Origin: Gammaproteobacteria bacterium
GTDB lineage: Bacteria > Pseudomonadota > Gammaproteobacteria > Steroidobacterales > Rariloculaceae
DNA: 64,000 nt
Assembly (NCBI GenBank): GCA_022820625.1
Contig: JAJEFE010000008.1
Location: forward strand, 1 to 64,000
Reading direction: 5' to 3'
Part shown: positions 16,277 to 59,952 of the stretch, one piece after another
How the letters are laid out: each line of letters begins with the position of its first letter
Position numbering within the stretch: position 1 is the stretch's first letter
Notes under the pieces: model-generated
What the model was told of the DNA's origin: nothing
Database searches by the model: none
Seen by the model: only the letters and a program-made list of their open reading frames with translations
Position numbers and translations under genes: made by a program

Positions 16277-16386
16277 GGCGAGTCGTACTGCCGGCCGCTT
16301 GAGACCCTCGCCCGCAGGGATGCGGGCGTGGAGCGTACAGGGACGTATTCACAGCGTGTCTCAAGCGGCCGGCAGTACGACTCGCC
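16277..16386. repeat. structured extragenic element A: 29-bp perfect inverted arms, two inner hairpins
   Basis: Bases 16277-16305 and 16358-16386 are perfect 29-base reverse complements. The 52-base interior holds a perfect 8-bp hairpin CGCCCGCA-GGGA-TGCGGGCG (16309-16328) and a second element around TACAGGGACGTA. Read on the minus strand, both inner loops contain RTCCCTG. It fills the soxB/DMGDH gap. Elements at 56943 and 59808 have the same architecture but unrelated arms. Confidence 0.9.
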
Positions 16387-16430
16387 GACCCATCCCCCAC
16401 AGCAGCCCAATCCTCGGCGAGACATGCGCC

Positions 16431-18890
16431 CTACCCATTGGCTCCATTGACGTCCCGCAACCGTTCATTGGCCGGGTCGAACGGACTGTCGGGAATCACC
16501 GTCGCCCTGAAAGTCCTGTCGAGGATCTCGATGCCGACATCGGCGCCCGGTACCGCCAGTTCGGGGGGGAGCATCCCCAGCGCCAGCGACTTGCCCGTGC
16601 GGAAACCGTAATTGCCGCTGGTGGCGCGGCCGACGGTCTCCCCGTCCCTGAGCAAGGCGTTGTTGCCGAGCGCGTCGGCGTCCTCCACGTCGTGAACCTC
16701 CAGCGTGACCAGCAGGTTCTTCAGTCCCGCCTCCCTGGATGCCAGCAGGGCGTCGCGCCCCAGAAAGTCGCCCTTGTCCGGCTTGACGAACCGGTCCAGG
16801 GTCGACTCGAAGGCCGAGTACTCGATGGACAGTTCGGTGCCCACCAGCCGGTAGGACTTCTCCATGCGCATGGCGTCCATGGCGCGAATGCCGAACGGCG
16901 CCAGCCCCAGGTCCTCGCCGGCCTCGAACAACGCGTCGAAGATGTGGTTCTGGTATTCCATCGGGTGGTGCAATTCCCAGCCGAGTTCGCCCACGAAGTT
17001 CACCCGCATGGCGTTGACCGGCGCCGAGCCGACCACGATGTCGCGGGCGGTCAGCCAGCGGAACGCCTGGTTCGACAGGTCTGCAGTCGTCACGCGCGAC
17101 AACAGTTCCCTGGCTTTGGGGCCGGCCACCACCAGCACGCCGACTGCGCCCGTCAGGGGCGTGAACTGCACGGATCCATCCCGCGGCATGTACTTGCGCA
17201 GGTAGTCGTGATCGAGCCGCTGGAAGGCGCCGGCCGATACCAGGTAGAAGGAATCGCCCGGCTCGCGGCGGATCGTGAACTCCGAATGCACGCCGCCGTT
17301 GCGGTTCAGGGCGTGTGCCAGGCACAGCCGCCCGACCTGCCTGGGCACGCTGTTGGCTACAAACCAGTTGAGAAAGTCTTCCGCGCCGGGGCCGGATACG
17401 CGGCACTTGGCGAACGCGGTCATGTCCTGCAGTCCGACGTTGTTCGTGACGTTGTCGACCTCCCTGCGAACCGCCTCGAACCAGCGCGAGCGGCGGAACG
17501 ACCAGTCGTCTTCCTGGGGCATTCCATCGGTGGCGAAGAAGTTGGGCCGCTCCCAGCCGAACTTCTGCCCGAACACGGCGCCACGCGCCTTCATGCGCTC
17601 GTAGCAGGGCGCCGTGCGCAGCGGGCGCGCGGCAGGGCGCTCCTCGTCCGGGTAGTGGATGATGAAGACGTGCGCGTACGCCTCCTCTGTTTTCTTGACC
17701 AGGTAGTCCTTCGTGGCGTATTCACCGAAACGGCGCGGCTCGACGCCCAGCATGTCGATGGTGGGCTCTCCCTCCACGATCCACTCCGCCAGTTGCCAGC
17801 CCGCGCCGCCCGCCGCGGTGATCCCGAAACTGTGTCCCTCCGACAGCCAGAAATTGTCGATGCCCCAGGCCGGCCCGATGATCGGGTTGCCGTCGGGCGT
17901 GTAGGCGATGGCGCCGTTGTAGACTTCCTTGATGCCGACCTCGGCGAACGCCGGCACCCGGTTCATTGCAGCCTCGATGTGCGGCATGAGCCGGTCGATA
18001 TCTTCCTGGAACAACTCGTACTCGGCCGCCGGATCCGGGCCGTCGACATAGCAGCAGGGCGCGTCCTTCTCGTAGGGGCCGAGGATGAAGCCGCTGTTTT
18101 CCTCGCGCAGGTACCACGAGCCGTCCGATTCGCGCAGCACGCCGAGTTCGGGCAGGTTCCTGTTCTTGCGCGCCAGCAGATCGGGATGCGGCTCGGTGAC
18201 GATGTACTGGTGCTCCACCGGCATCACCGGCACGTCGAGTCCCACCATCTCGCCGGTCTGGCGGGCGTAATTCCCGGTCGCCGAAACCACGTGATCGCAG
18301 GTGATGTCGCCCTTGTCCGTGTGCACGACCCAGCCTCCGGAAGTCGCCTGATCGATGCCGAGAACCGCCGTCTTGCGGTAGATCGCGGCGCCGCGCGCGC
18401 GGGCGCCTGCGGCCAGCGCCTGGGTCAGGTCGGCGGGCTGGATGTAGCCGTCCTCGGGATGAAAAATGCCGCCCACGAGCCCGTCGATGTTGCACAGAGG
18501 CCAGAGCTCCCCGATCTCCGCCGGCGTCAGGAAGCGCACGTCCACCCCGATGGTCTTCGCCGTGGCCGCGTACTGATGGTACTCGTCCATGCGGTCCCTG
18601 TTCATGGCCAGGCGCAGGTTGCCGACCCGGCTGAACCCTACGCGGCGGCCGGTTTCCTGCTCGAGCTGCTGGTAGAGGTTGACCGAGTACTTGTGCACCT
18701 GGCCCACCGAGTAGCTCATGTTGAACAGCGGCAGCAGGCCCGCGGCGTGCCAGGTCGAACCGGACGTCAGTTCACCCTTCTCGACCAGCACGACCTCGTC
18801 GCCCCAGCCTTTCCTGGCCAGGTGATACAGTGTGCTGACGCCGACAACACCGCCTCCGATGACGACGACTTTCGCCCGTGTCTTCATCAT
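16431..18890 (-). CDS. dimethylglycine dehydrogenase-like FAD/GcvT protein
   Basis: An 819-residue protein with an N-terminal FAD oxidase domain (GGGVVG at 12-17) and a C-terminal GcvT/THF domain (about residue 430 onward; NFVGELGWELHHP). The SGSTWHAAG motif carries His48, equivalent to the His that covalently binds FAD in dimethylglycine and sarcosine dehydrogenases. It should remove an N-methyl group from dimethylglycine and give methylene-THF, with electrons going to ETF. Position between the MttB/corrinoid genes and soxBDAG fits the middle step from betaine to glycine. Two paralogues lie at 36766 and 39228. Confidence 0.9.
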   Translation of the reverse strand: MMKTRAKVVVIGGGVVGVSTLYHLARKGWGDEVVLVEKGELTSGSTWHAAGLLPLFNMSYSVGQVHKYSVNLYQQLEQETGRRVGFSRVGNLRLAMNRDRMDEYHQYAATAKTIGVDVRFLTPAEIGELWPLCNIDGLVGGIFHPEDGYIQPADLTQALAAGARARGAAIYRKTAVLGIDQATSGGWVVHTDKGDITCDHVVSATGNYARQTGEMVGLDVPVMPVEHQYIVTEPHPDLLARKNRNLPELGVLRESDGSWYLREENSGFILGPYEKDAPCCYVDGPDPAAEYELFQEDIDRLMPHIEAAMNRVPAFAEVGIKEVYNGAIAYTPDGNPIIGPAWGIDNFWLSEGHSFGITAAGGAGWQLAEWIVEGEPTIDMLGVEPRRFGEYATKDYLVKKTEEAYAHVFIIHYPDEERPAARPLRTAPCYERMKARGAVFGQKFGWERPNFFATDGMPQEDDWSFRRSRWFEAVRREVDNVTNNVGLQDMTAFAKCRVSGPGAEDFLNWFVANSVPRQVGRLCLAHALNRNGGVHSEFTIRREPGDSFYLVSAGAFQRLDHDYLRKYMPRDGSVQFTPLTGAVGVLVVAGPKARELLSRVTTADLSNQAFRWLTARDIVVGSAPVNAMRVNFVGELGWELHHPMEYQNHIFDALFEAGEDLGLAPFGIRAMDAMRMEKSYRLVGTELSIEYSAFESTLDRFVKPDKGDFLGRDALLASREAGLKNLLVTLEVHDVEDADALGNNALLRDGETVGRATSGNYGFRTGKSLALGMLPPELAVPGADVGIEILDRTFRATVIPDSPFDPANERLRDVNGANG

Positions 18891-18903
18891 TCAGGAACCC
18901 GGC

Positions 18904-58570: not shown

Positions 58571-58613
58571 GGCCGGGGGCGCCGCCGTCGAAAGAGCGCG
58601 AAGGAACTCTCCT

Positions 58614-59783
58614 ATGAGAACCCAGGTAGGCATCATCGGCTCCGGTCCGGCGGGATTGTTGCTCTCGCAATTGCTGGACCTGCACGGAATCGAAAGCATT
58701 GTCCTGGAGCGGCGCAGCCGCGACTACGTACTCGGGCGTATCCGGGCCGGCGTGCTGGAAGAGGGCATGGTCAACATGCTCAGACTGGCTGAAGTGGGCG
58801 AGCGCATGGACCGGGAGGGCCTGGTCCACGATGGCTTTGAAGTGGCCTTCGGCGACCGCCGGTTCCGCATCGATCTGAAGAAGTACACGGGCAAGACCGT
58901 GATGATCTACGGCCAGACGGAGCTGACCAGGGACCTGATGGAGGCGCGCGACGCCCGCGGCGGCCGGTTGGTGTACGAGGCCGAAGGCGTGGCCATCCAC
59001 GATCTGGATACCGACCGTCCCAAGCTTCGCTACAAGAAGGATGGGCTCGAGCACGAAGTGGTCTGCGACTTCATCGCCGGATGCGACGGTTTCCGCGGCG
59101 TCAGCCGGCGTTCGATCCCCGACGATGTGCTCAAGACTCACGAACGCGTCTACCCGTTCGGCTGGCTGGGCGTGCTCTCGGAAACCCGGCCCATCTCCGA
59201 CGAAGTCATCTACGTCAATCACTGGCGCGGCTTTGCACTGTGCAGCATGCGCTCCATGACCCGCAGCCGTTACTACATCCAGTGCGCCTTCGACGAGGAC
59301 CTGGAAGAGTGGACCGACGACCGGTTCTGGGACGCCCTGCGTGCGCGCCTGCCCCACGAGGCCGCCGAATCCATGGAAATCGGCCCGTCCATCGAGAAGA
59401 GCATCGCCCCGCTGCGCAGCTTCGTGGCCGAACCCATGCGCCACGGCCGGCTCTTCCTGGCCGGCGACGCGGCGCACATCGTACCCCCCACCGGAGCCAA
59501 GGGGCTCAACCTGGCGGCATCGGACATCTACTACCTGCACCGGGCGTTCGTGGCCTACTACAAGGAAGGCCGCTCCGACCTCATGGACACCTACTCCGAC
59601 AGCTGCCTCAAGCGCGTCTGGAAGGCGGAACGCTTCTCCTGGTGGCTCAGCACCGTCCTGCACCGCTTCCCCGACCAGAGCACCTTCGACCGCGGCATCC
59701 AGCTGGCGGAACTGGACTACCTGGCGGACTCGGAAGCCGCTCAAGCCTCCTTCGCCGAAAACTACGTGGGCCTCCCTTTCTAG
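58614..59783 (+). CDS. pobA: 4-hydroxybenzoate 3-monooxygenase
   Basis: A 389-residue class A flavoprotein hydroxylase that turns 4-hydroxybenzoate into protocatechuate with NADPH and O2. It aligns closely, from memory, with the Pseudomonas enzyme: GSGPAG (9-14), [15 protein letters not shown] and [17 protein letters not shown]. The substrate residues are retained one position earlier (Tyr200, Ser211, Arg213, Tyr221, Pro292, Tyr384). AAGGA precedes the ATG. Its product is the substrate of LigAB encoded at 61660-62918. Confidence 0.96.
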
Positions 59784-59807
59784 CAAAACGCCCGATGCAA
59801 CCACGGA

Positions 59808-59952
59808 GCGAGGGTGGAGGCAGACAATGCTCGCTCGCGTCGTGGGCGCGGCGCGGGGCCATGGATGGCCAGGAGCGCCGCGCCCCGATTCGAGCCCGCC
59901 AGGGATGGCGGGGGAGATTGAGCGAGCGAGCATTGTCTGCCTCCGCCCTCGC
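59808..59952. repeat. structured extragenic element C: 31-bp inverted arms, 83-base core
   Basis: Bases 59808-59838 and 59922-59952 are 31-base inverted arms with a single T/G (wobble) pair at 59815. The core has a perfect 11-bp stem GGGCGCGGCGC/GCGCCGCGCCC and a second hairpin CCCGCC/GGCGGG over AGGGAT. Relative to element B, two base pairs of the first stem have changed on both sides, keeping pairing. It lies between pobA and the RidA gene. Confidence 0.92.

Follow-up and report, generated by a model that had tools for sequence, protein, structure and literature searches.

A structured bacterial repeat family whose self-matching arms stay with their locus and whose conserved cores appear to be exchangeable

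CsrA-antagonist RNAs of the CsrB and RsmX/Y/Z type carry hairpin loops with ANGGA closed by C-G, and repeats of the ERIC type are intergenic imperfect palindromes. Three branched hairpin elements, termed A, B and C, are described here from a 64,000-nt stretch of DNA (the window; positions 1 to 64,000 of contig JAJEFE010000008.1, assembly GCA_022820625.1) of a gammaproteobacterium of the Rariloculaceae (Steroidobacterales), together with the repeat family to which B and C belong. The loops share the ANGGA motif and its C-G closure with the CsrA-antagonist RNAs, but here there are two loops per element, many dispersed copies and a long variable stem, with no Rfam match at gathering score and no sense-strand bias. 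With ERIC-type repeats, compared by description rather than by sequence, the family shares an intergenic imperfect palindrome of similar length.

REPINs are described as having conserved palindromic ends and a less conserved spacer (PMC3116915). Like REPs, REPINs and BIMEs as presented there, the family consists of dispersed palindromic intergenic repeats in tens of copies. Unlike them, it has variable ends and a conserved interior, no Y1 transposase was found in its genus, its arms of about 27–36 bp are specific to each locus, and its cores are apparently exchanged and inverted. Template switching has been described as homogenising the arms of inverted repeats and inverting their spacers (PMC8604942), and has been proposed to maintain RNA stems (PMC8794818). 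The family resembles these systems in its homogenised arms, in mirrored changes that span several bases and, at two sites, in an apparent inversion of the spacer. Both accounts centre on inverted repeats of yeast genes and the stems of RNA genes, whereas the present case is a multi-copy bacterial family with many orthologous sites, which also seems to exchange its spacer between loci. A paper on CsrA-RNA in Alcanivorax deals with single small RNAs, not a repeat family (PMC9788540). A search of open-access papers in PubMed Central, with subscription journals outside its reach, found neither a description of the family nor one of core exchange among fixed arms.

The results indicate a real and unusual repeat family, in which conserved and apparently exchangeable cores lie inside locus-bound, self-matching arms. 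It provides many natural replicated sites of concerted paired-arm evolution, at which the parts of selection and polymerase template switching could be measured in bacteria. It also carries a warning: covariation is the evidence by which a functional RNA stem is usually proved, yet copying can produce it as well.

Elements A, B and C and the family of B and C

An inverted-repeat scan of the window (arms of at least 18 nt, gap of at most 200 nt) recovered the three branched hairpins that a first-pass annotation of the sequence had reported with near-perfect arms. The other 18 arm pairs from the scan showed complementarity of at most 84%. The elements are made up as follows.

16277..16305: 5' arm of element A, 29 nt, 29/29 complementary to the 3' arm (inverted-repeat scan)
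16306..16357 (+): core of element A, two hairpins, loops CAGGGATG (16315-16322) and CAGGGACG (16338-16345) (folding)
16358..16386: 3' arm of element A (inverted-repeat scan)
56943..56973: 5' arm of element B, 31 nt, 31/31 complementary, spacer 83 (inverted-repeat scan)
56974..57056 (+): core of element B, 83 nt, 145-nt subtype, loops CACGGACG (56995-57002) and CAGGGACG (57035-57042)
57057..57087: 3' arm of element B (inverted-repeat scan)
59808..59838: 5' arm of element C, 31 nt, 30 Watson-Crick pairs and one GU (97%), spacer 83 (inverted-repeat scan)
59839..59921 (+): core of element C, 83 nt, 145-nt subtype, loops CATGGATG (59860-59867) and CAGGGATG (59900-59907)
59922..59952: 3' arm of element C (inverted-repeat scan)

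The plus strands of A, B and C fold with energies of -87.3, -131.3 and -126.9 kcal/mol, far below dinucleotide shuffles (z-scores of -11.4, -14.2 and -13.3; as good in 0/200 shuffles). All six inner loops share the plus-strand consensus CANGGAYG, which agrees with the minus-strand pattern given in the annotation. Within 464 kb of the genome that holds the window, the long-armed inverted repeats were A, B, C, one more copy and two unrelated hairpins; a 43-nt partial match inside the same stretch (C143:33734) is without such long arms.

B and C belong to a dispersed family of structured repeats about 145–148 nt long. BLAST with the 145-base C gave 45 matches in its own genome, self and reverse-strand rows counted. 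A covariance model, R1, was built from 23 copies, one of which is B itself (152.7 bits over 56943-57087), and a broader model, R2, was also built. Hereafter, G000 denotes the own genome, G001 and G005 two congeners, and G002, G003, G004 and G006 further members of the genus. At E ≤ 0.1, R1 gave at least 65, 31 and 62 matches in G000, G001 and G005, respectively, with both strands counted. The matches listed fall at 116 places (one row per place, partial copies at contig ends included), and among them DNA was fetched for 113 (48 in G000, 20 in G001 and 45 in G005). No R1 match was found in G002, G003, G004 or G006.

Extended to the order, the covariance-model search that the annotation had proposed recovered a dispersed family, with R1 matches in 28 of 246 sampled genomes, the own genome included. 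Carriers in other genera included the single-contig genome G101 (20 matches), G060 (20) and G167 (12). Across the class, R2 matched 7 of 369 sampled genomes, of which three belong to the order (the own genome among them) and four do not; the order and class scans used strict filters, with 12 or 8 candidates scored per genome. R1 also matched one contig labelled Pseudomonadales (jk18xAbins.44) and two labelled Dehalococcoidia (L172 and L132; 123 and 102 bits), the latter two being probably mis-binned gammaproteobacterial contigs. Phages and plasmids searched with the core of C gave no match at E up to 0.001, and the loop pattern was present on three viral contigs, none of which was matched by R1 at E up to 0.01. 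Many contigs of G000, G001 and G005 end inside an element, which suggests that the repeats interrupt short-read assembly. A short way downstream of some elements there are isolated 3' arms or 3' halves of further elements (G000 C29:8531, C50:35178 and C28:14923; G005 C56:88353), as if they were decayed tandem copies.

The core of the family is composed of two hairpins with loops C[ANGGAN]G, set within the long outer stem. An alignment of 25 copies, of which 24 represent four families of the order and the last is that on the Pseudomonadales contig, demonstrated conservation of the loops CANGGA, the junctions GCGTCGT, CGAT and TT.AGC (TTNAGC), and the stems. In this alignment, pairing extends to 95.9% of cells and covariation to 44 of 51 pairs, values that were reached by none of 500 shuffles and that lay far above those of all slid structures. 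The core is a specific covarying structure and not a simple GC-rich motif, the form in which the annotation had feared that the match might dissolve. As read from the sequences, GA/AG steps replace Watson-Crick pairs on the loop strand of some stems; these may be sheared pairs, which would point to the plus strand as the one that folds. Two core subtypes occur in the genus, mostly of 82–83 nt and 85–86 nt, and mean pairwise identity among 74 full copies is 0.81 for the core and 0.63 for the arms. A rough motif rule applied to these 74 copies assigned a type 145 first hairpin with a 32-nt second part to 45, type 147 with a 34-nt second part to 14 and type 145 with a 34-nt second part to 3; two were flagged as discordant, one of which looks misread by the rule, and 9/74 were unclassified. 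Under this rule the two hairpins mostly travel together, and the idea of chimeric cores was rejected.

Element A has a core that differs from that of B and C. R2 scores it almost equally on both strands (46.4 and 43.2 bits), and the match therefore rests on the arms and does not show homology of the cores; A was set aside as a homologue of B and C. It is a separate, single-copy element built to the same design. BLAST against the seven genomes of the genus found one full copy in the own genome and one in G005, the cores being identical at 51 of 52 positions and the arms showing three two-sided and two one-sided changes (hand count on the alignment). A is located between a DAO-type oxidase gene and a DAO + GCV_T (dimethylglycine-dehydrogenase-like) gene (window 14996-18890). 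Both are on the minus strand, so the loop strand of A is antisense to both.

Paired change in the arms and apparent exchange of the cores

The annotation had described the arms of the elements as mutually unrelated, and this did not hold for B and C. Judged by comparison of the copies, their arms, both of which start GCGA.GG, are diverged homologues of one consensus (GCGAGGGTGTGTGCGGACAGCNCTTGCNCGC among 23 copies) that stay with their locus. Watson-Crick pairs make up 96.1% of arm pairs in the 74 full copies. In 15 of 21 orthologous pairs, the ortholog's arms are the top-ranking ones of all arms in its genome, and the arms were not found as separate multi-copy families, an outcome that the annotation had also considered.

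Changes in the arms were counted at 16 orthologous sites, which remained after removal of three of the 21 pairs below the arm-identity threshold and two with insertions or deletions. The 496 arm columns comprised 414 that were the same, 60 changed from one Watson-Crick pair to another, 8 one-sided wobbles, 10 one-sided breaks and 4 others; paired columns were thus changed on both sides 60 times and on one side 18 times. The 60 double changes (35 transitions and 25 transversions) occupy 12.1% of arm columns, compared with a divergence of 13.7% (829/6033; 393 transitions and 436 transversions) in the flanks, which are largely coding. Chance inverted repeats in the same flanks served as the control and showed 5 double Watson-Crick changes vs 201 single changes, along with 12 double changes that left the pair broken (120 repeats); under two other settings the counts were 1 vs 43 (29 repeats) and 2 vs 32 (15 repeats). 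Short-loop stems gave only three repeats as a control, and the wider control was used instead. In the two pairs that were skipped, insertions or deletions are mirrored in both arms; the arms of one of them (C10:16140) rank only eighth, and this pair possibly represents an independent element. The arms of B differ from those of its G005 ortholog by two two-sided changes and one wobble. The two-sided excess appears, with good support from this comparison, to be the signature of one arm copied from the other at near the background rate. This pattern fits arm-to-arm copying (template switching) better than selection, and bears out the suggestion of the annotation that the arms are kept by conversion between the two sides.

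The cores behave differently from the arms. The core of the ortholog ranked first in 7 of 21 pairs (median rank 11), the core subtype differed in 7 of 21, and arm and core similarity were uncorrelated among other pairs (r = -0.005). In five of the seven subtype changes the arms singled out the ortholog, and both flanks were compared in two of the seven (G000:C109:20906/G005:C9:14090 and G000:C10:9151/G005:C22:120616). Moreover, the core was inverted between shared arms at two sites among 29 orthologous pairs. At one of these (G001:C191 vs G005:C65) both flanks were compared; at the other (G000:C155 vs G005:C26:159267) one flank was compared and the subtype had changed too. Short-read assembly could contribute to the two inversions. 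These patterns suggest that cores are exchanged between loci. Arms stay with the locus and cores do not, which is the reverse of transposon behaviour that the annotation had pointed out.

It is probable that the locus-bound arms are kept self-matching by arm-to-arm copying around a conserved, apparently exchangeable core. In such a mechanism, the folding core would bring the two arms together, and DNA polymerase would switch template between them (quasipalindrome correction or arm-to-arm gene conversion), erasing one-sided mutations or copying them to the opposite arm. The same template switching could flip the core, and a separate process (ectopic conversion or cassette replacement) would exchange cores between loci.

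Gene context and competing explanations

Gene context was derived with a simple gene finder of our own, and orthologous copies are not independent in these counts. Among 70 copies with two neighbours in G000, G001 and G005, 33 lie between convergent genes, 17 between genes both antisense to the loop strand, 10 between genes both sense and 10 between divergent genes. The convergent excess persists in other genera (19/36). Distances of 18–28 nt from the element were counted for 38 of 109 adjacent stop codons in the genus, vs 2 of 51 start codons. The long stem past stop codons is probably a strand-symmetric 3'-end structure that the host either tolerates or exploits.

The two loops resemble a two-site module of the CsrA/RsmA type, which would act when the plus strand is transcribed. 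Selection of the elements as CsrA/RsmA sponges, whose plus-strand transcript would offer two ANGGA hairpins to a CsrA dimer, is a possibility that we hold tentatively. It is consistent with the presence of two or more CANGGANG motifs in the core of 72 of 82 full genus copies (one in 8 and none in 2) and of none on the opposite strand (0/82), with CsrA in 7/7 genus genomes, and with a match of an RsmW fragment to hairpin 2 of B (22 bits, against a gathering score of 52), obtained in permissive Rfam searches of one stretch containing B and one containing a G101 copy, which gave sub-threshold matches only. However, CsrA is also found in G002, G003, G004 and G006, which have no R1 matches, and the loop strand is without sense bias beside tandem genes (antisense 17 vs sense 10 in the genus; 7 and 9 in other genera). 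In addition, only 21 of 44 copies from other genera have two motifs, largely because the first loop in G060 and G092 is the shorter CAGGAC, in which GGA is kept. A strand-specific mRNA role was rejected for the same lack of sense bias toward the neighbours.

Several observations weigh against copying between arms around an exchangeable core. The copying step is read from substitution patterns between metagenome-assembled genomes (MAGs), the site pairs are partly non-independent, some sites being compared in three genomes, and 2 further one-sided changes, among cells unpaired in both, add to the 18 in paired columns. Only one flank is available in 8 of the 21 pairs, among them five of the seven pairs with a subtype change and one of the two with an inversion, and the arms do not single out the ortholog in two of the seven subtype-change pairs; independent insertion is possible at such pairs. 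Template switching does not explain the replacement of a core by another subtype, which calls for an additional process (ectopic conversion or cassette replacement). C and its G005 ortholog are identical at 144 of 145 bases, with flank alignments of 83–93% identity. Neutral copying would not predict this near-identity, which possibly reflects recent transfer, or selection or local constraint at the site. Among ten copies with an altered loop motif, three have poor arms (16, 18 and 20 of 27), as relaxed selection would give. Finally, the stop-codon spacing of 18–28 nt is weak in other genera (6/62), and the missing sense bias counts against a CsrA role at each locus.

Ordinary compensatory evolution, in which the stem is needed as RNA and wobbles are tolerated and then compensated by selection, would account for the strong covariation and the conserved loops and junctions, as in selected RNA, and for the three altered-loop copies with poor arms. 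It is nevertheless unlikely, given the small number of intermediates at about 14% flank divergence and the mirrored insertions and deletions. The 25 transversion doubles cannot pass through a wobble pair and hence count against a stepwise wobble route, and 7 of the 10 altered-loop copies keep at least 25 of 27 arm pairs, vs 66 of 72 copies with two motifs. Rather doubtful, though conceivable, is a two-part system in which the palindromic arms would serve as permanent docking sites at the ends of genes, inherited with their locus and kept self-matching through polymerase copying, and in which the entire core would be replaced as a cassette, in one orientation or the other, by a process dedicated to it that recognises the folded plus strand (GGA loops and the GTCGT/CGAT/TTTAGC junction). 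Another possible source is an assembly artefact, in which inverted arms of about 31 nt let assemblers flip or swap cores. The genomes are short-read MAGs with many contigs ending in an element, the two core inversions could arise in this way, and one flank is missing in the 8 pairs noted above. Such an artefact is very unlikely to be the explanation: both flanks are syntenic in 13 of 21 pairs, the arms match within each copy, the cores that were swapped are complete and fall into distinct subtypes, one of the inverted cores differs in subtype too, and the single contig of G101 holds 20 matches of the same design. It also cannot account for the arm statistics.

Two further explanations concern the origin of the elements, and both are extremely improbable. 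The annotation had raised the possibility that the arms are made from target DNA. An inverted duplication of the target at core insertion would account for locus-specific, self-matching arms with the core in either orientation, but the arms have a common family consensus. Moreover, empty sites in G005 and G006 orthologous to G000 C28:24828 and C115:51649 (four alignments, two sites, each in two relatives) contain neither arm, no core and little of the spacer, and the flanking genes nearly abut at both. Two more G005 loci look empty in BLAST rows, with alignments too poor to judge, and G001 carries an element at three of these candidate empty places, with assembly gaps. Target duplication is not above chance either, direct repeats of at least 8 being found around 8 of 78 elements in the genus and 5 of 41 in other genera, vs 7.8% and 8.0% in shuffled flank pairs. 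A miniature inverted-repeat transposable element or an insertion sequence derivative was rejected on the variable terminal arms and the same chance-level target-site duplications. A REP/REPIN family mobilised by RAYT (Y1 tyrosine transposase) would agree with dispersed, intergenic, palindromic copies near gene ends, numbering in the tens, and with the GTA that precedes GCGAGG in some copies. This class, which the annotation had judged a poor fit, was rejected for the genus: the Y1_Tnp domain (PF01797) was found in 0/7 genus genomes, other genera not being searched, by a search positive in 5 of 14 control genomes, and the variable ends and conserved core are the opposite of what is described for REPINs (PMC3116915). 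A reverse-transcriptase partner (group II intron or retroelement derivative) was rejected as well, as RVT_1 does not follow the elements. Among nine carriers searched, PF00078 was absent from G000, G001, G101, G060, G167 and G014 and present in G005, G585 and G335.

Orientation and neighbouring genes in the window

Elements on one contig tend to share orientation, with 52 pairs in the same and 22 in the opposite direction (P about 0.003 if orientation were random). The loop strand is mostly the strand that is locally rich in C: its local GC skew is negative at 34/40 loci in G000, 11/17 in G001 and 35/44 in G005, and after correction for gene direction at 29, 11 and 39 loci, respectively. In the single-contig G101, the corrected local skew is negative at 14/20 loci and the replichore fit is 10/19, from a noisy skew table and with one switch locus left out. 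An orientation by replication strand was rejected, G101 being without clear replichore bias, and no claim is made.

The gene upstream of C is placed as follows.

58614..59783 (+): FAD_binding_3 family gene; its stop codon lies 24 nt before C, a spacing common in the genus

Elsewhere in the window, Rfam at gathering score gave nothing but PYLIS_3, at 35234-35333 on the minus strand (45 bits, above gathering). This match overlaps an MTTB-family methyltransferase gene (window 34830-36410, minus strand; Pfam E 1e-110), which looks like a non-pyrrolysine homologue because its 526-aa frame is open under table 11.

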